From contig REAR01000072.1 in the NCBI GenBank assembly GCA_004295245.1, positions 1 to 33,217 on the forward strand: 33,217 nt of DNA, read 5' to 3'. Below the pieces are notes generated by a model. The model was not told where the DNA came from and searched no databases. It saw only the letters and a program-made list of their open reading frames with translations. Both the position numbers and the translations under genes were made by a program. Below, piece by piece: positions 2,993 to 31,495 of this stretch; position 1 is the stretch's first letter; each line of letters starts with the position of its first letter. This DNA is from Sphingobacteriales bacterium (GTDB lineage Bacteria > Bacteroidota > Bacteroidia > Chitinophagales > Chitinophagaceae).

Positions 2993-3027
2993 TTTCATAG
3001 CAGCATCCTTGCGTCGCACACTTCAGC
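2993..3027 (+). repeat. dispersed TTGCGTCGCAC repeat, copy A (forward)
   Basis: The exact 15-mer core TTGCGTCGCACACTT is at 3009-3023. Its left flank TTTCATAGCAGCA is shared with the copy at 17141. It lies between ispG and the epimerase gene and forms an inverted pair with copy B at 4056, so the two bracket that gene. Confidence 0.85.
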
Positions 3028-4055: not shown

Positions 4056-4090
4056 GTTGAAGTGTGCGACGCAACACTGCTGCTGTAAAT
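4056..4090 (-). repeat. dispersed TTGCGTCGCAC repeat, copy B (reverse)
   Basis: The exact 15-mer core is on the minus strand at 4060-4074, eleven bases past the stop region of the epimerase gene. The flank toward 4090 reads CTGCTGCTGTAAAT, the complement of the family's usual left flank. Confidence 0.85.
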
Positions 4091-9582: not shown

Positions 9583-10785
9583 TTACAAAATACTTTTTAC
9601 CCTAAGAATGAGTAAAACAGGGCCTTCTTCCCGCTGCACTAGAATTTTTACTTTTTCTCCGGGTACCTGTAAAGCATTTTTTAATGCCAGCATGTTTTTG
9701 CTGAGTATATTATTGATGCCAATAATTTCATCGCCTTCCTTTATACCGGCTTGTTCTGCCGGAGACCCCTTCATCACCTCGGTAACAATTACTTTGTTAT
9801 TGATGTAATAAAAGTTTAAACCGGTGTAAGAGTAATCAAACGGGTCTCTGAAGTGGGTATTGGGCACCAGGTATACATCTCTTTTTTCGTAATTAATAAT
9901 AGTATTAAAGCGCCGCAGTATATCGTTGCCAATTAAACCACCCAGATAGGGGTATGAGGTTACGTTAAACTCATCATCAAAAACATACGCAGGCACTTTT
10001 CTAAATTTATAAGGCCCCAGTTTAAAATTTTTTACAACGGTTAGTTCCATCATTTTCTTACCGCCCATACCTTCTACCTGTGTAATTACTCTTTTGCGTT
10101 GGGGGCTAACAACGGCACTGTCCTGCACAAAATCTTGCGAGAGTAATAAACACAAACCAGCACCGGTATCAAAGTAAAACCGAGAGAAGCGGGTTACATC
10201 TTCGCCAATGGTGGCCGATTGTATGAGCAGGTTAACCAGTAAAGGCTTTAATAAATGTCCCCCCCGCGGGTATTTCATTGAACCTTTTGAAAACACATGA
10301 ATCTTCATGCTGTCGTAATCAATCTTTACAATATAGCGGTTAAAAAAACTATACCCAATTATGCCATCAATACGCTCACCATATACACTGGTTAAAATTT
10401 CATAATCGTTTATATGAAAATTCAAACTGTCTACAATAATACCCGGCAACTTAAGTGTATTGTTATATGCAAAACTTACGGTGCGTACACCGGCAATGCC
10501 ACGTATGGTTTTATCAGAAGGGGTAATGGGCACTTTTAATTGAAGTGCAGTAACAGAGTCTAAAGAAATGCCACCGCTACCCGTATCTAAAATAAAGTTT
10601 AAAGAATCGCTTAAGTTATTAATGCTGCCTTTTATTAAAATAACACCGCCGGTAAACATTCTAAAATTAAAAGTGGTTAACTTTTTTGCCGGCGGTGGCA
10701 CAAATTCTTCTTGTGCCTGTAAATAACAAGAAAAGGATAATAAACCCAGCAGTAGTGCTACAATATAGCGTTGGTTGCGTCGCAC
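9583..10785 (-). CDS. exported aspartyl protease with PDZ domain
   Basis: A 400-residue protein with a signal peptide (about residues 7-24), two retropepsin/pepsin-like halves each with an active Asp motif (DTGSG at 67-71, DTGAG at 206-210), and a C-terminal PDZ domain (about 305-395; VMKGSPAEQAGIKEGDEI). It probably cleaves or processes proteins in the cell envelope; the target is unknown. The only evident start is a GTG at 10785, inside copy C of the dispersed repeat, so the first residues MRRNQRY and probably part of the signal peptide come from repeat sequence. No ATG precedes the mature part in this frame. The divergent neighbour is mqnC. Confidence 0.85.
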   Translation of the reverse strand: MRRNQRYIVALLLGLLSFSCYLQAQEEFVPPPAKKLTTFNFRMFTGGVILIKGSINNLSDSLNFILDTGSGGISLDSVTALQLKVPITPSDKTIRGIAGVRTVSFAYNNTLKLPGIIVDSLNFHINDYEILTSVYGERIDGIIGYSFFNRYIVKIDYDSMKIHVFSKGSMKYPRGGHLLKPLLVNLLIQSATIGEDVTRFSRFYFDTGAGLCLLLSQDFVQDSAVVSPQRKRVITQVEGMGGKKMMELTVVKNFKLGPYKFRKVPAYVFDDEFNVTSYPYLGGLIGNDILRRFNTIINYEKRDVYLVPNTHFRDPFDYSYTGLNFYYINNKVIVTEVMKGSPAEQAGIKEGDEIIGINNILSKNMLALKNALQVPGEKVKILVQREEGPVLLILRVKSIL

Positions 10786-12161: not shown

Positions 12162-12200
12162 GTTGAAGAGTGCGACGCAACCAAAGCCGAGTATTGAAAC
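12162..12200 (-). repeat. dispersed TTGCGTCGCAC repeat, copy D (reverse)
   Basis: Minus-strand core TTGCGTCGCACTCTT at 12166-12180. It shares the CTCTTCAAC variant with copy F at 18987. It lies between the mqnC terminator and the hybrid kinase gene. Confidence 0.82.
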
Positions 12201-15300: not shown

Positions 15301-16706
15301 ATAACCTGCTTACTATTATTAACGATATTCTTGACTTTTCTAAAATTGAAGCTGGCAAATTATTTATTGATGAAGTTGAGTTGGATTTGAATGAACTGGT
15401 AGAAGAAACAGTTGATCTTTTAAATGTAAAAGCATTTGAGAAAAAGCTGGAAATGTTATTGTGGTTTAACCCGCAAATACCCCGTGGCTTTATGGGAGAC
15501 CCGGTAAGAATACGCCAGATACTAGTAAACCTAATTGGCAATGCTATTAAGTTTACTGAGAAAGGAGAAATATTTGTATCGGTAGATAAAGCCGGCGACC
15601 TGTATCAAAAAGATGGAAAGAAATTGCAGAACCTGCAGATAAAAGTAAAAGACTCTGGTATTGGTATACCAAAAGATAAACTCAATTCTATTTTTGAAAG
15701 CTTTACACAAGCCGATAATTCCACCACCCGAAAATTTGGGGGCACCGGTTTAGGCCTAACCATTGCAAAAAGCCTGGCGCAATTAATGACGGGCGATTTA
15801 TTTGTAGACAGTGATTATGGCAATGGCAGTGTATTTACTTTTGAACTGCAATTAGAAGTATTAGATGAACAGCCTTTGATTGCAGAACAACCAAAGGGCC
15901 AATTAAAACGCATACTGGTGGTAGATGATAATGAAACGAACCGCCAGTTAATGAAAGGCATTTTTGAGTTCTTAAATATTAACTGCACCATTACGGCTTC
16001 TGCTATGGAAGCGCTGGAAGCTTTTAAAGCTTCAGAAAATAGAGGAGAACATTTTGATTTAATAATAACCGATCATCAGATGCCAGATATGGATGGATTG
16101 GAATTAGCTAACAAAATTTATCAGCAACACGATAAACAGTCTAACCCCATGGTGCTGATGCTATCATCGCTGGAGCGAAATATGTACCAGGCTGAAGCTA
16201 AAAAATCGGGTATCGACATGTTTTTAAGCAAGCCGGTAAAACTGCACCAGCTTAATGAAATATTAAGTTCTTTGTTTGAAACCAATATTCAGATAAAAGA
16301 ACGGGTTACCACGGTGCCTACTATAGAAAAAATGGCATCGGGCACCACCATTATGGTGGTAGAAGATGAACCCATAAACATGATGTTGATTACAGAAGTA
16401 TTGGGTAAAATGGGCTTTAGTCTGTTAAAGGCATCAAATGGTAAACAAGCATTGGAAGTACTGAGCGAGCACGACCCCAAGCTTATTTTTATGGATGTAA
16501 ACATGCCAGAAATGGATGGCCTGGAAACCACACAGCATATTCGCAAGTTTACCAACAATAAAGCCAACATACCCATTATTGCACTTACTGCAGATGCCAT
16601 GAAGGAAGACCGCTTAAAATGTTTAGATGCCGGCATGAACGATTATATCTCTAAACCCTTTAAGCTGGAAGAAATAAATGGCATTCTGAAGCAGTATCTT
16701 TCTTAA
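12324..16706 (+). CDS. hybrid sensor histidine kinase, PilJ/NarX-type sensor, PAS, GAF, two receivers
   Basis: A 1460-residue membrane kinase. Layout: TM1 (about 13-34); a periplasmic PilJ/NarX-like four-helix domain with the motif [15 protein letters not shown] (about 44-58); TM2 (about 191-209); four PAS-type segments (about 235-350, 360-480, 482-608, 627-750); a GAF domain (about 758-922); HisKA with H956 in MSHELRTP; HATPase with [16 protein letters not shown] and GTGLGLTI; and receivers with D1250 (IITDHQMP) and D1391 (FMDVNMP). Both receivers keep their Asp and Lys. No DNA-binding domain or separate regulator is adjacent, so output is probably through phosphorelay to a distant partner. 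The ligand is unknown; nitrate is not implied by the fold alone. Confidence 0.93.
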
Positions 16707-16799: not shown

Positions 16800-17093
16800 A
16801 TGAACAACAAAAAACCTTCTTTACTGGTGTGTATTGCAATGGATGCTTTAGGATATGCAACCTATGCCATACCTTTTCTGGGAGAGTTGGGCGATTTGAT
16901 TTGGGCCCCTGTTTCTGCCGCTGTTTTCTTTAAAGTATTTGGCGGTTGGAAGGGAGCACTGGGTGGCACATTTAATTTTATTGAAGAATTGTTACCCGGC
17001 TTAGACTTTGTTCCCTCTTTTACCATTATGTGGCTGCTGCAACACTTTGGTAAAAAGCAACCCACTACCACCACTATTATAAAAACAGCATAA
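16800..17093 (+). CDS. small conserved membrane protein, unknown function
   Basis: A 97-residue protein with two or three hydrophobic stretches (about 7-26, 33-60, 70-82) and short motifs IPFLGELGD, WAPVSAAVF and NFIEELLPGLDFVPSFTI. I have the impression of similar small hypothetical proteins in other Bacteroidota but know no function. The gene follows the hybrid kinase by 93 bases on the same strand and ends in a strong terminator, so it may be co-transcribed with the kinase. The ATG start has no competitor nearby. Confidence 0.7.
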   Translation: MNNKKPSLLVCIAMDALGYATYAIPFLGELGDLIWAPVSAAVFFKVFGGWKGALGGTFNFIEELLPGLDFVPSFTIMWLLQHFGKKQPTTTTIIKTA

Positions 17094-17094
17094 C

Positions 17095-17119
17095 AAAACC
17101 CCGCGTTAGCGGGGTTTTT
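17095..17119 (+). terminator. intrinsic terminator after the small membrane protein
   Basis: A ten-base stem AAAACCCCGC / GCGGGGTTTT with loop GTTA and a final T-tract, one base past the stop codon. Confidence 0.92.
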
Positions 17120-17140
17120 ACTTTTAGGTTGCCAGCCAAA

Positions 17141-17180
17141 GTATTTCATAGCAGCAGCCGTTGCGTCGCACACTTGTACG
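17141..17180 (+). repeat. dispersed TTGCGTCGCAC repeat, copy E1 (forward)
   Basis: Exact 15-mer core at 17161-17175, with left flank GTATTTCATAGCAGCAGCCG and right extension GTACGG. A GGTTGCCAGCC stretch further left (17128-17138) resembles the outer end of copies G and I2. It pairs with E2, 81 bases on. Confidence 0.87.
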
Positions 17181-17252
17181 GTTGCAGGTTAATGGTTCAT
17201 AACTTATAGTAAATGGTATTGCTATTAACTATGTACAATAAGCATACTGTAG

Positions 17253-17271
17253 CACCAGTGTGCGACGCAAT
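17253..17271 (-). repeat. dispersed TTGCGTCGCAC repeat, copy E2 (reverse)
   Basis: Minus-strand core TTGCGTCGCACACTG at 17256-17270. With E1 it closes a 110-base segment having inverted ends, lying between convergent genes. Confidence 0.82.
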
Positions 17272-17314
17272 CCCGAAGTTTCGGGACTTAACCGGAGTTA
17301 CCGTTGCCGGTTAA
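17271..17314. other. two adjacent stem-loops downstream of nadB
   Basis: TCCCGAA/TTCGGGA (17271-17286, two-base loop) is followed by TTAACCGG/CCGGTTAA (17288-17314, 11-base loop). They sit between repeat copy E2 and the nadB stop. There is no T-tract, so classical termination is doubtful; they may protect the nadB mRNA 3' end or belong to the repeat element. Confidence 0.55.
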
Positions 17315-17320
17315 CCAACA

Positions 17321-18937
17321 TTACCATATAATATTTTGGGGCACTTTATTTTGTTGCGGGTAATCGGTATTAAAATGCAGGCCACGGCTTTCGTGCCTAA
17401 ACTGCGCACACTTAACCACCAGGTAGGCTACCGTTATCATATTACGCAACTGGCATAGCTGCGGAGAAAGAATGGTACTCTTATACAGCGCTTCTGTTTC
17501 TTGCCACAATAAATCCAATCGTTTCATGGCACGGGCCAACCGCACATTGGTGCGCACAATGCCCACATAATCGCTCATCAGCAACTGCAACTCTTTTAAA
17601 CTTTGTGTAAGCAAAATCATTTCTTTGGGGGCGGTGGTGCCGGCAGCATTCCACTCTGGTATGGCAGTGGCACTGTCTTTAGTAGTGGCGCTGAGTATGT
17701 TTATATTATTGGTAACATCTATAAAACTGCGGTGGCCAAATACCATGGCTTCCAGCAGCGAGTTGCTGGCTAAGCGATTGGCGCCATGCAGGCCGGTGCT
17801 GGCACACTCGCCGGCAGCGTATAAATTTTTTATAGAAGTGCGTCCATGCTCATCGGTTTTAATGCCACCACAACTGTAATGGGCTGCCGGTGCAACGGGT
17901 ATTAAATGTTTGGTAACATCTACACCAATGCTTAAACACTTTTCATAAATATTTGGAAAGTGATGAATAAATTTTTCTTTATCCATGTGGCGGCAATCCA
18001 GGTACACATGTTCTGTACCAGTTATCTTCATTTCACTGTCAATGGCACGGGCTACAATATCTCTGGGTGCTAAATCTTTTCTGGCATCGTAACGCTCCAT
18101 AAAAGCTTCGCCGTTTTTGTTACGTAAAATGCCACCATCTCCACGCACCGCTTCAGTAATTAAAAAGGCTTGGCCACCCAGGCCCGGTTCATACAAAGCA
18201 GTTGGATGAAATTGTATAAACTCCATATTTTCTACCCGGCCTTTGGCTCTATGAAACATTGCCACGCCATCACCTGTGGCAATAGCCGGGTTGGTGGTGG
18301 TGCGGTAAATTTGTCCGTTGCCACCCGTAGCCAGCAAAGTAACGGTAGCAGTTATTTTTTCTATCTGGTTATTTTGAAGGTTTAGTGCATACACACCGTA
18401 GCAGGTAACATCGGGGGTTGATTTGGTAACCAGGTAACCCATATGGTGCTGCGTGATGAGTTCTATAACAAAACAATGATTAATAAGTGTAATGTTTTTT
18501 TGCGCCTGCACGGTTTGCAACAGTGCCCGTTCCATTTCTTTACCTGTAACATCTTTATGATGCAAGATGCGATGCTGACTATGGCCGCCTTCTTTACCCA
18601 ATGAATAAGTACCGGCCGCATCTTTGTCAAACTGTGCACCCCATTCAATAATTTCTTTAATGCGTTCTACGCCTTCTTTAACTACAATTTCAACCACCTG
18701 CCGGTTGCACAAACCATCACCGGCAATTATTGTGTCTTCTATATGTTTTTCAAAACTATCGTTTACCGTATCCCAAACGCCGGCAATGCCGCCTTGTGCG
18801 TATTTGGTATTGGTTTCATCTGGCGCGGCCTTGGTTATTACTAATACCTGTTGCTGCGGAAACTGTTTGGCAATTTTTAATGCATAGGTTAAACCTGCAA
18901 TGCCACTGCCCACTACTAAAAAATCGGTCTGTATCAT
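17321..18937 (-). CDS. nadB: L-aspartate oxidase
   Basis: A 538-residue FAD enzyme that oxidises aspartate to iminoaspartate, the first step of de novo NAD synthesis. Marks: dinucleotide-binding VVGSGIAGL at residues 8-16, TKYAQGGIAGV, HHKDVTGKEME, ATGGNGQIY, ENMEFIQFHPTAL, TEAVRGDGG, the PRDIVARAI helix and the C-terminal YAAGECASTGLHGANRLASN. The frame is open 20 codons further (GTG at 18997), but that extension begins MRRN and is translated from repeat copy F, so I take the ATG at 18937. The next pathway genes, nadA and nadC, are not in the window. Confidence 0.95.
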   Translation of the reverse strand: MIQTDFLVVGSGIAGLTYALKIAKQFPQQQVLVITKAAPDETNTKYAQGGIAGVWDTVNDSFEKHIEDTIIAGDGLCNRQVVEIVVKEGVERIKEIIEWGAQFDKDAAGTYSLGKEGGHSQHRILHHKDVTGKEMERALLQTVQAQKNITLINHCFVIELITQHHMGYLVTKSTPDVTCYGVYALNLQNNQIEKITATVTLLATGGNGQIYRTTTNPAIATGDGVAMFHRAKGRVENMEFIQFHPTALYEPGLGGQAFLITEAVRGDGGILRNKNGEAFMERYDARKDLAPRDIVARAIDSEMKITGTEHVYLDCRHMDKEKFIHHFPNIYEKCLSIGVDVTKHLIPVAPAAHYSCGGIKTDEHGRTSIKNLYAAGECASTGLHGANRLASNSLLEAMVFGHRSFIDVTNNINILSATTKDSATAIPEWNAAGTTAPKEMILLTQSLKELQLLMSDYVGIVRTNVRLARAMKRLDLLWQETEALYKSTILSPQLCQLRNMITVAYLVVKCAQFRHESRGLHFNTDYPQQNKVPQNIIW

Positions 18938-18961: not shown

Positions 18962-19008
18962 GCTGTTGAGCTTTGTGCAACAGTGGTTGCGTCGCACTCT
19001 TCAACAGC
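18962..19008 (+). repeat. dispersed TTGCGTCGCAC repeat, copy F (forward), with flanking arms
   Basis: Core TTGCGTCGCACTCTT at 18987-19001. The copy is enclosed by perfect eight-base arms, GCTGTTGA at 18962-18969 and TCAACAGC at 19001-19008, so it can fold back on itself. It lies upstream of the nadB ATG. Confidence 0.83.
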
Positions 19009-19733: not shown

Positions 19734-19869
19734 ACAAAAGTTTTGCTGAAGCTACAGCATTTTGCAGGTATGGGTAGTATAAAAGCAGAATAAAGTGCTG
19801 CCGATGAACGGAGCGCCGCAACGGTGTTGCGCATTGATATAATGCTGGTAACCCAATAAAAAAAATGCG

Positions 19870-21570: not shown

Positions 21571-21633
21571 GCACAAGTGTGCGACGCAACGATGTTGAAA
21601 TACTTGTTGCTGCTGGCTACCTAATTAAGCTAC
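21571..21633 (-). repeat. dispersed TTGCGTCGCAC repeat, copy G (reverse)
   Basis: Minus-strand exact core at 21575-21589. From ACAAGTG at 21573 through GGCTACC near 21622 it aligns closely with copy I2 (31446-31494), so the unit extends over about 50 bases. ACAAGT at 21573 and ACTTGT at 21602 form short inverted arms. The end overlaps the last codons of paaA only slightly, if at all. Confidence 0.82.
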
Positions 21634-23699: not shown

Positions 23700-23745
23700 A
23701 GCAATACTATTAAACATCGTTGCGTCGCACACTTCAGCAGTAACG
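23700..23745 (+). repeat. dispersed TTGCGTCGCAC repeat, copy H (forward)
   Basis: Exact 15-mer core at 23720-23734, followed by CAGCAGTAA. The left flank CAATACTATTAAACATCG fits the family pattern. It lies between the convergent ends of tatC and the lamin-tail gene. No reverse partner is seen before the next forward copy at 31290. Confidence 0.82.
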
Positions 23746-31261: not shown

Positions 31262-31315
31262 CAGCGTTAGAATATATATGCAGCTTTGCTTGCGTCGCAC
31301 ACTTGTACGGCAGTA
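31262..31315 (+). repeat. dispersed TTGCGTCGCAC repeat, copy I (forward)
   Basis: Exact 15-mer core at 31290-31304, then GTACGGCAGTAACTG. The left flank CCAGCGTTAG...ATGCAGC matches the longer unit. It forms an inverted pair with the decayed copy I2. Confidence 0.82.
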
Positions 31316-31438
31316 ACTGTATTGAACTTTATAGCTGTGGTAGTAAACAGGCTGCCGAGGGGGCTGGCCATGTTTATGGTAAAACAGTTGCTATAAGAGT
31401 ATGCAAGAGATTGCATAAAAAAAGTTCAGTTAAGTAGT

Positions 31439-31495
31439 TACAGTACAAGTGAGTGACACAACGATGCTGCATAGTATTACTGCTGCCGGCTACCT
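31439..31495 (-). repeat. dispersed repeat, decayed copy I2 (reverse)
   Basis: The core position (31447-31461) differs from the 15-mer at three bases, but the flank ACGATGCTGCATAGTATTAC and the distal CTGCCGGCTACC align well with copy G. CAGTA and TACTG flank it as short arms. It is the only copy without an exact core. Confidence 0.7.

Follow-up and report, generated by a model that had tools for sequence, protein, structure and literature searches.

A facing pair between convergent genes

The DNA analysed here (the window) is a stretch of 33,217 nucleotides from a Sphingobacteriales bacterium, and the features of interest occupy the gap between two convergent genes. The left neighbour (16800-17093, + strand) is an open reading frame of 97 amino acids that gave no Pfam match, and the right neighbour (17321-18937, - strand) encodes a FAD-binding/succinate-dehydrogenase-C-terminal protein, which we label L-aspartate-oxidase-like or nadB-like. 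The gap holds two copies of a short motif, E1 (TTGCGTCGCACACTT, 17161-17175, + strand) and E2, its reverse complement (17257-17270, - strand). As the original prediction had it, these copies face each other at a distance of 81 bases and span 110 bases from core to core (17161-17270).

The same prediction placed two hairpins after E2, as if they had been added to the pair. Both are present just outside E2, TCCCGAA-GT-TTCGGGA being followed by TTAACCGG...CCGGTTAA, but they are a variant of the E2 arm and no independent module: the former abuts a core directly in 3/3 occurrences in a 424.5-kb sample of the window's genome (one further occurrence lies outside the sample, in locus L010), and the latter, with a single occurrence in that sample, arises where the box of the E2 arm (GTTAACCGGC) base-pairs with the stretch of that arm adjoining it. 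The sample comprises the window and 20 further stretches; it is not a random draw, and its 123 exact 11-mer cores are near the genome mean. A 1-kb region around the pair contains one terminator-like hairpin (1.2 expected in shuffles), which belongs to the left gene and lies before E1 (Table 1). The 204-nt unit of the window folds at z = -4.2 relative to dinucleotide shuffles, and the whole window gave no Rfam match at the gathering threshold.

Table 1. Repeat units and neighbouring hairpins in the window
Feature	Position	Strand	Remarks
Core copy	3009-3019	+	11-mer
Core copy	4064-4074	-	11-mer
Core copy	10775-10785	+	11-mer; missing from the orthologous gap of congener G002
Core copy	12170-12180	-	11-mer
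Intrinsic-terminator-like hairpin of left gene	17095-17118	+	separate from the pair, upstream of E1
E1 outer arm	17121-17160	+	T-rich start, GGTTGCCAGC box, TTTCATAGCAGC; consensus T-run/CCAGC/AGCA boxes between -43 and -1 relative to the core
E1 core TTGCGTCGCAC	17161-17171	+	conserved motif extends to about 17179: ACTTGTAC
Interior between E1 and E2 cores	17172-17259	.	related to the interior of 8/37 other pairs
E2 core (facing copy)	17260-17270	-	
Hairpin TCCCGAAGTTTCGGGA (TCCCGAA-GT-TTCGGGA)	17271-17286	-	recurrent variant of the core-adjacent arm end
Remainder of E2 outer arm	17287-17318	-	GTTAACCGGC box pairs with CCGGTTAA, giving the second hairpin at 17288-17314
Core copy	18987-18997	+	11-mer; missing from the orthologous gap of congener G001
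Unit with alternative core TTGCGGCGCTC	19811-19821	-	
Core copy	21579-21589	-	11-mer; missing from the orthologous gap of congener G002
Core copy	23720-23730	+	11-mer
Core copy	31290-31300	+	11-mer; in a facing pair (162 bp) with the unit at 31451-31461
Unit with alternative core TTGTGTCACTC	31451-31461	-	

Organisation of the unit and of its pairs

The unit represented by E1 and E2 measures about 85 nt. An outer arm of 40 nt leads to a core of 10 nt that hardly varies, and an inner part of about 45 nt follows. Across 131 sites with the exact 10-mer in the sample of the window's genome (G000), the arm is T-rich from -43 to -35 and continues with GG/TT, a CCAGC box near -28 and AGCA-TCG before the core; the core reads TTGCGTCGCA, C.CTT(CA/GT)(A/G)C extends from it as far as +18, and around +36 there is a weaker box resembling GCA. 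Units of G164, another genome of the family, are built on the same plan, with GAGCCGGGC, TATGAAGC and GTTCGGAA.TCTATTGAGCA. The parts of single units, whether arms, cores or inner parts, fold no better than dinucleotide shuffles (mean z from -0.24 to -0.23 in G000 and from +0.21 to +0.57 in G164, with control flanks at -0.23 to -0.03 in the same test), and for the core together with the inner part the values are -0.24 (G000, n=131) and +0.57 (G164, n=159). A search for RNA-type covariation over the 131 sites was likewise fruitless, the strongest mutual information being between close positions and mostly reflecting one-base shifts. A coding role for the core was dropped because the arm varies in length by single bases.

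Neighbours less than 260 bp apart in G164 are arranged almost exclusively head-to-head (25 '+-' against 1 '-+'). The outer arms within a pair are less alike than shuffled ones, both in G000 (4.15 vs 8.42, sd 1.73, 31 pairs) and in G164 (7.41 vs 10.86, sd 1.48, 50 pairs); arm-arm complementarity was therefore rejected, the observed similarity being opposite to expectation. The inner halves resemble each other more than shuffled halves do in G000 (9.66 vs 1.61, sd 1.52); in G164 they exceed the shuffled value by about 1 sd (12.24 vs 10.45, sd 1.77). Close exact-core pairs of G000 are spaced from 26 to 146 bp. This variable spacing speaks against the proposal that the facing pair is the basic mobile form, as does the lack of a facing partner within 260 bp at 88 of 152 sites in the G000 sample and 120 of 242 in the G164 sample, counted over the recognised core types. 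Several pair interiors of G000 (L048, L043, L056 and others) hold AAGTCCGAAAGTC-like sub-repeats, i.e. a short repeat nested between cores.

Copy number, phyletic distribution and placement

The units are numerous, intergenic and restricted to one clade, and their presence differs between congeners. In the window alone the 11-mer matches at 10 places, each time exactly, where 0.28 matches would be expected if one mismatch were tolerated. G000 has 955 exact copies (474 + 481), or about one per 3.5 kb, and the backwards pattern used as control has 2 (0 + 2). Among 195 genomes of the family, including G000 itself, 39 carry at least 20 copies, with 9 as the largest backwards control; more than 900 are found in six (G000, G074, G079, G086, G156 and G164), the maximum being 1,832 in G164. 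The congeners G001 and G002 are nearly empty, with 3 copies and 1 copy, respectively. High copy numbers are met only in the family of the host, Chitinophagaceae to judge by matching records, and are patchy even among congeners; outside the family, a single 15-mer match occurs in 5 of 381 sampled genomes of the phylum, against 2 in the backwards control. Among the matches listed (80 of at least 117 stretches), the record titles name Chitinophagaceae/Chitinophagales, a particular genus or unplaced Bacteroidota. The genera Limnovirga, Segetibacter, Foetidibacter and Hydrotalea belong to Chitinophagaceae, as presumably do the carriers Flavisolibacter, Pinibacter, Paracnuella and Niabella, and named strains such as Limnovirga soli KCS-6 and Segetibacter koreensis DSM 18137 carry the repeat. 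Plasmid and phage records gave no match to it. In G006 the 45 places among the matches listed fall, by eye, on both strands along the chromosome.

Placement was analysed in the G000 sample and in a 419-kb sample of G164 with 142 exact 11-mers, which is not random either, its second set of stretches having been picked around places that match L079. In G164 (about L079:840-1100) and G591 (about L160:2470-2750), a tandem GGGGTT..GAACC.. array whose unit sequence differs between the species lies downstream of an orthologous gene, and tandem GTGAAAAATCAC(G/A) repeats lie upstream of an orthologous gene in both (about L079:230-310 and L160:1840-1930). Predicted genes cover 86% of the G000 and 82% of the G164 sample, and the repeat is intergenic at 126 of 131 sites in the former (4 at ends, 1 inside a predicted gene) and at 194 of 206 in the latter (11 at ends, 1 inside). 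The sampled intergenic gaps that measure 30 nt or more number 232, and 96 of them contain one or more cores. Site density per kb of gap falls from convergent (4.2 in G000, 4.0 in G164) through co-directional (2.5 and 2.8) to divergent gaps (1.1 and 2.0), and in co-directional gaps the orientation of the units is even (37:36 in G000, 63:61 in G164). At '++' sites of G164 the stop codon lies 40-46 nt from the core in 22/63 cases and never nearer than 35 nt, and at the 37 '+-' sites one stop lies at 20 nt; the T-run is therefore the outer edge of most units. At '--' and '-+' sites of G164 a predicted start falls within 5 nt in 3/94.

Discrete core alleles

The cores fall into a small number of discrete alleles, and point mutants are scarce. 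A profile of the arm that leaves out the core also finds sites in front of TTGCCACGCTC, TTGCTACGCTC, TTGTGTCACTC, TTGCGGCGCTC and others; at 9 bits or more the reversed sequence, used as control, yields one match in G000 and none in G164. G000 has 90 arm matches of at least 12 bits. The exact core follows in 75 of them and, judged by eye, either it or a different core follows in 10 of the remaining 15. A scan with arm and inner part but the core masked found 142 sites above 20 bits in G000 and none in the reversed sequence. These comprise 115 sites with the exact 11-mer, 1 with an exact core one base out of register, 22 with another core allele (7 TTGCGTCGCAAT and 15 other full alleles), 1 point mutant and 3 unlike any of these, the other alleles being undercounted here and in G164, since the profile was trained on exact-core sites. 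The corresponding 221 sites in G164 divide into 138 exact cores, 47 TTGTGTCACTC, 13 TTGCGTCGC(T/G)C, 5 TTGCCACGCTC, 5 of the TTGCGTCGCAA type and 13 others, about 7 of which resemble single-occurrence core variants.

Facing pairs may combine different alleles, as TTGCGTCGCAC and TTGTGTCACTC do at 31290-31461 of the window; such mixed pairing is frequent in G164. The latter genome (L080, L081, L147, L149, L152 and others) also has a second family, with the core TTGCCACGCTC and a conserved tail some 90 nt long (GTTTCACAGTTCC...AAGCGAAGCGTGGCAG), the end of which can by eye pair with the core; its best shared blocks are 83-97% identical.

Copied interiors and orthologous sites

The middle of the window pair's interior recurs (z>4) in 8 of the 37 other pairs of G000, all eight being in loci fetched for their match and two of these places also in the sample stretches. 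Together with the coming and going of copies at orthologous sites these pairs lend support to the original view of the facing pair as a copied unit, and they mark the 110-bp core-to-core block as a genuine copied segment. That view had further cast the pair as MITE-like, which fared less well: neither at the edges of the cores nor at those of the arms do target-site duplications exceed shuffled controls in 48 + 46 pairs.

The limits of the copied blocks emerge from G164, where 16 places have a common interior of about 110-120 bp between differing arms. Across 46 pairs of this genome, 67 comparisons with interiors at least 80% identical (mean 86%, and up to 97% for interiors on different contigs) have a mean arm identity of 0.604, against 0.589 for 1,029 comparisons with interiors less than 60% identical; the 67 stem from the 46 pairs and one dominant interior family, and are not independent. 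Only 1 of the 134 arms in these 67 comparisons reaches 80% identity. Site by site, inner parts with an identity of at least 0.90 (n=51) go with a mean arm identity of 0.570 (0.540 overall), and 24 pairs with arms at least 85% alike go with an inner identity of 0.546 (0.497 overall). As interiors with 80-97% identity lie between arms that are hardly more alike than those of unrelated pairs, the copied blocks stop at the cores. The test rests on G164, since G000 offers just 3 comparisons that reach 80% interior identity (arm identity 0.546 vs 0.565). That the arms fail to track the interiors suggests that exchange or conversion would be needed.

At all three orthologous gaps that were aligned the element is absent from the congener (10775 and 21579 in G002, 18987 in G001), the gaps being too diverged for exact joints. 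No element was seen beside the nadB-like gene of G001 and G002, the left neighbour of which differs in both; the sole near match there, TTGCGGCGCTC in G001 (L117:1368), is not preceded by an arm and falls in sequence that looks coding. In the comparison of G156 with G074, the site at L088:15176 is occupied in G156 and empty in G074, and the gap at 16402 holds a different arrangement; both genomes retain a single site and a pair, whose interior is about 40 nt in one species and about 200 nt in the other. Over six comparisons of retained orthologous cores, 60/61 core positions are identical, against 167/257 (65%) in the arms and 104/162 (64%) in the inner parts, the core figure being inflated, as most comparisons needed an exact core in both species, and two of the six sharing one G164 unit.

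Search for a mobilising enzyme

The Y1_Tnp domain was searched in 34 chosen genomes and matched in 28. No match was found in the complete genome G156, with 1,690 copies of the repeat, nor in G041 (263) and G088 (101), and the Y1/RAYT transposase was accordingly rejected as a necessary mobiliser on account of G156. Strong Y1_Tnp matches are found in genomes that nevertheless lack the repeat (e.g. G003, G023 and G120). Of 29 other fetched Y1 loci, 6 hold the core or the TTGTGTCACTC allele anywhere in stretches of roughly 3 kb or less. The sole Y1_Tnp match of G000 (L078:1250-1866 on G000:C141) has a core about 185 bp away, and its residues DHVH ... YIMNQKQHH resemble subclass 1.2 as it is characterised in the parts of PMC6006769 drawn on here. 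This gene adjoins the palindromes CCATGGTTAAAACCATGG and CCCACGGTTTTAACCGTGGG, a second type of repeat unrelated to the core. The genome-wide search, which covered the Y1 class, linked no enzyme to the repeat.

Interpretation and alternatives

The repeat is best read as REP/REPIN-like with a new architecture. E1 and E2 make up one of its head-to-head dimers, which are dispersed in high copy number between the genes of Chitinophagaceae, and we propose, at a probability of roughly 45%, that the core is the recognition and exchange site of a putative enzyme. A sequence-specific enzyme, not necessarily a resident Y1/RAYT protein, would cut or copy at the core; core-to-core segments would spread among resident sites while the outer arms stayed behind; and exchange, or selection for recognition, would keep the core uniform. 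Cutting or copying specific to the core is suggested because reassortment occurs at the core and the core itself comes in discrete alleles. A bolder form of the idea, which we regard as rather unlikely, would make the core the crossover site of a novel cassette-exchange system: arm-plus-core units would be fixed docks by genes, cassettes would be copied between matching core alleles with neither target duplication nor Y1, and the alleles (TTGCGTCGCAC, TTGTGTCACTC, TTGCNACGCTC and so on) would represent specificity classes of the enzyme. Against the main reading stands the observation that arms rarely occur without some core and are in this respect unlike mere targets. Moreover, at orthologous gaps without the core no arm is seen either, strongly diverged as these gaps are, and as arm and core are absent together they seem to arrive together. 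The likeness of the inner halves in G000 makes the pairs there in part true palindromes, as a plain hairpin view would predict too.

The uniformity of the core could equally be explained by selection through a host DNA-binding protein, and in-place selection of this kind is the main rival, although we consider it doubtful. On this account a chromosomal protein (a nucleoid, insulator or transcription-boundary factor) would bind the core, purifying selection would act in place and the amplification would be old. The excess of core over arm and inner identity at retained orthologous sites fits such a site well, as do the scarcity of point-mutated cores (1/142 in G000, about 7 single-occurrence variants among 221 in G164), an orientation that ignores transcription, as expected of a site acting at the DNA level, and coding sequence that mostly ends at the outer edge of the arm, to judge by the stop-codon distances in G164. 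Congeners with 3 copies and 1 copy nonetheless live without the repeat, gain and loss take place at orthologous sites, several core alleles stand beside the same kind of arm, and such selection, while predicting a uniform core, does not predict core-bounded copying. An ordinary REP/REPIN population mobilised by RAYT (TnpA-REP) of the IS200/IS605 superfamily would account for the head-to-head dimers, the intergenic placement with its enrichment in convergent and depletion in divergent gaps, and the several related core types, all typical of REPs in the parts of PMC3733652 drawn on here. It is made improbable by the heavy carriers without Y1_Tnp and the Y1-bearing genomes without the repeat, by the different palindrome flanking the Y1 gene of G000 and the rarity of the core at other Y1 loci, and by the lack of a hairpin in the single unit.

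The MITE reading, in its non-autonomous DDE-type form, draws on the facing cores, the copied interior and the 90-97% identity between places; we find it quite improbable, given the missing excess of target-site duplications, the single state of about half of the sites and outer arms that are less alike within a pair than shuffled ones. In a transcription-termination role, facing units would fold into a strong hairpin acting in both directions between convergent genes, and the arm could supply the 3' half of a terminator. In favour of it are the peak of site density in convergent gaps, the stop codons that often abut the T-run, and a few arms that pair with upstream sequence into a textbook terminator; pairing of the arm with sequence upstream also lies above cross-paired controls, by 1.6 sd for G000 and 1.4 sd for G156. 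The same pairing does not exceed controls in G164, G086 and G006, however, and the T-run precedes the hairpin instead of following it, so that the order of an intrinsic terminator (a stem and then a T-run on the coding strand, with orientation linked to transcription) is not what is found; orientation is even, and the left gene has a terminator-like hairpin of its own before E1. This makes the explanation very improbable. Scarcely credible is a DNA-uptake signal accumulating by biased transformation: a short uniform core with weaker flanks, the spacing of about 3.5 kb and inverted pairs after genes would suit it, but known uptake signals are common in coding sequence, against 1 of 127 classified sites inside a predicted gene here, and the long copied interiors would go unexplained.

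Relation to known repeat systems

Among the matches listed, the literature on RAYT, REPIN and REP in Bacteroidetes, on intergenic or interspersed repeats of Chitinophaga(ceae) and on the host genera does not describe this repeat, and the core string turns up in five papers, seemingly unrelated. MITEs of DDE transposons have inverted facing ends and a copied interior. The present repeat resembles them in its facing cores and copied interior; the inner halves of a pair are alike in G000, and the arms beyond the cores are not complementary. It differs in that the outer arms are not co-copied, target-site duplications are not in excess, and many units are single.

REPINs and the GTAG REPs that accompany RAYT (see PMC6006769) share with it facing short conserved motifs, a variable interior, intergenic placement and hundreds of copies. 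As to two facing motifs being mobile as a unit, interiors recur at different places, but about half of the sites are single. Unlike in REPINs, a resident Y1 transposase is missing from some heavily loaded genomes (G156, G041, G088), singles are as common as pairs, the unit has neither a GTAG/GTGG foot nor a hairpin of its own, and the core-to-core interior is the part most alike between loci in G164.

The CGTC-tagged REPs of Di Nocera et al. 2013, within the parts of PMC3733652 drawn on here, are hairpins of 20-40 bp with stems of 8-9 bp and no associated transposase, reported in Bacteroidetes; their dimers are often heterodimers, set in some species in longer flanking palindromes. Like them, the repeat described here is high-copy, intergenic in both G000 and G164, arranged in head-to-head dimers, which predominate among close G164 neighbours even though about half of the sites are single, and endowed with CGTC in its core. 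In those REPs an unpaired CGTC precedes a stem of 8-9 bp with a loop of 4-5 nt, whereas here CGTC is followed by GCACNCTT(GT/CA)(A/G)C, with a stem of at most 3-4 bp, and the folding z-scores give no such structure; the unit of about 85 nt, its T-run arm, the unfolded state of single units and the occurrence of discrete core alleles next to one kind of arm set it further apart. For CGTC REPs the question has been raised of what moves and maintains high-copy bacterial repeats that lack RAYT. A repeat that occupies 96 of 232 sampled gaps with no linked enzyme offers a clean test of that question, and reassortment at a uniform core, combined with discrete core alleles, provides sequence-level predictions for it.
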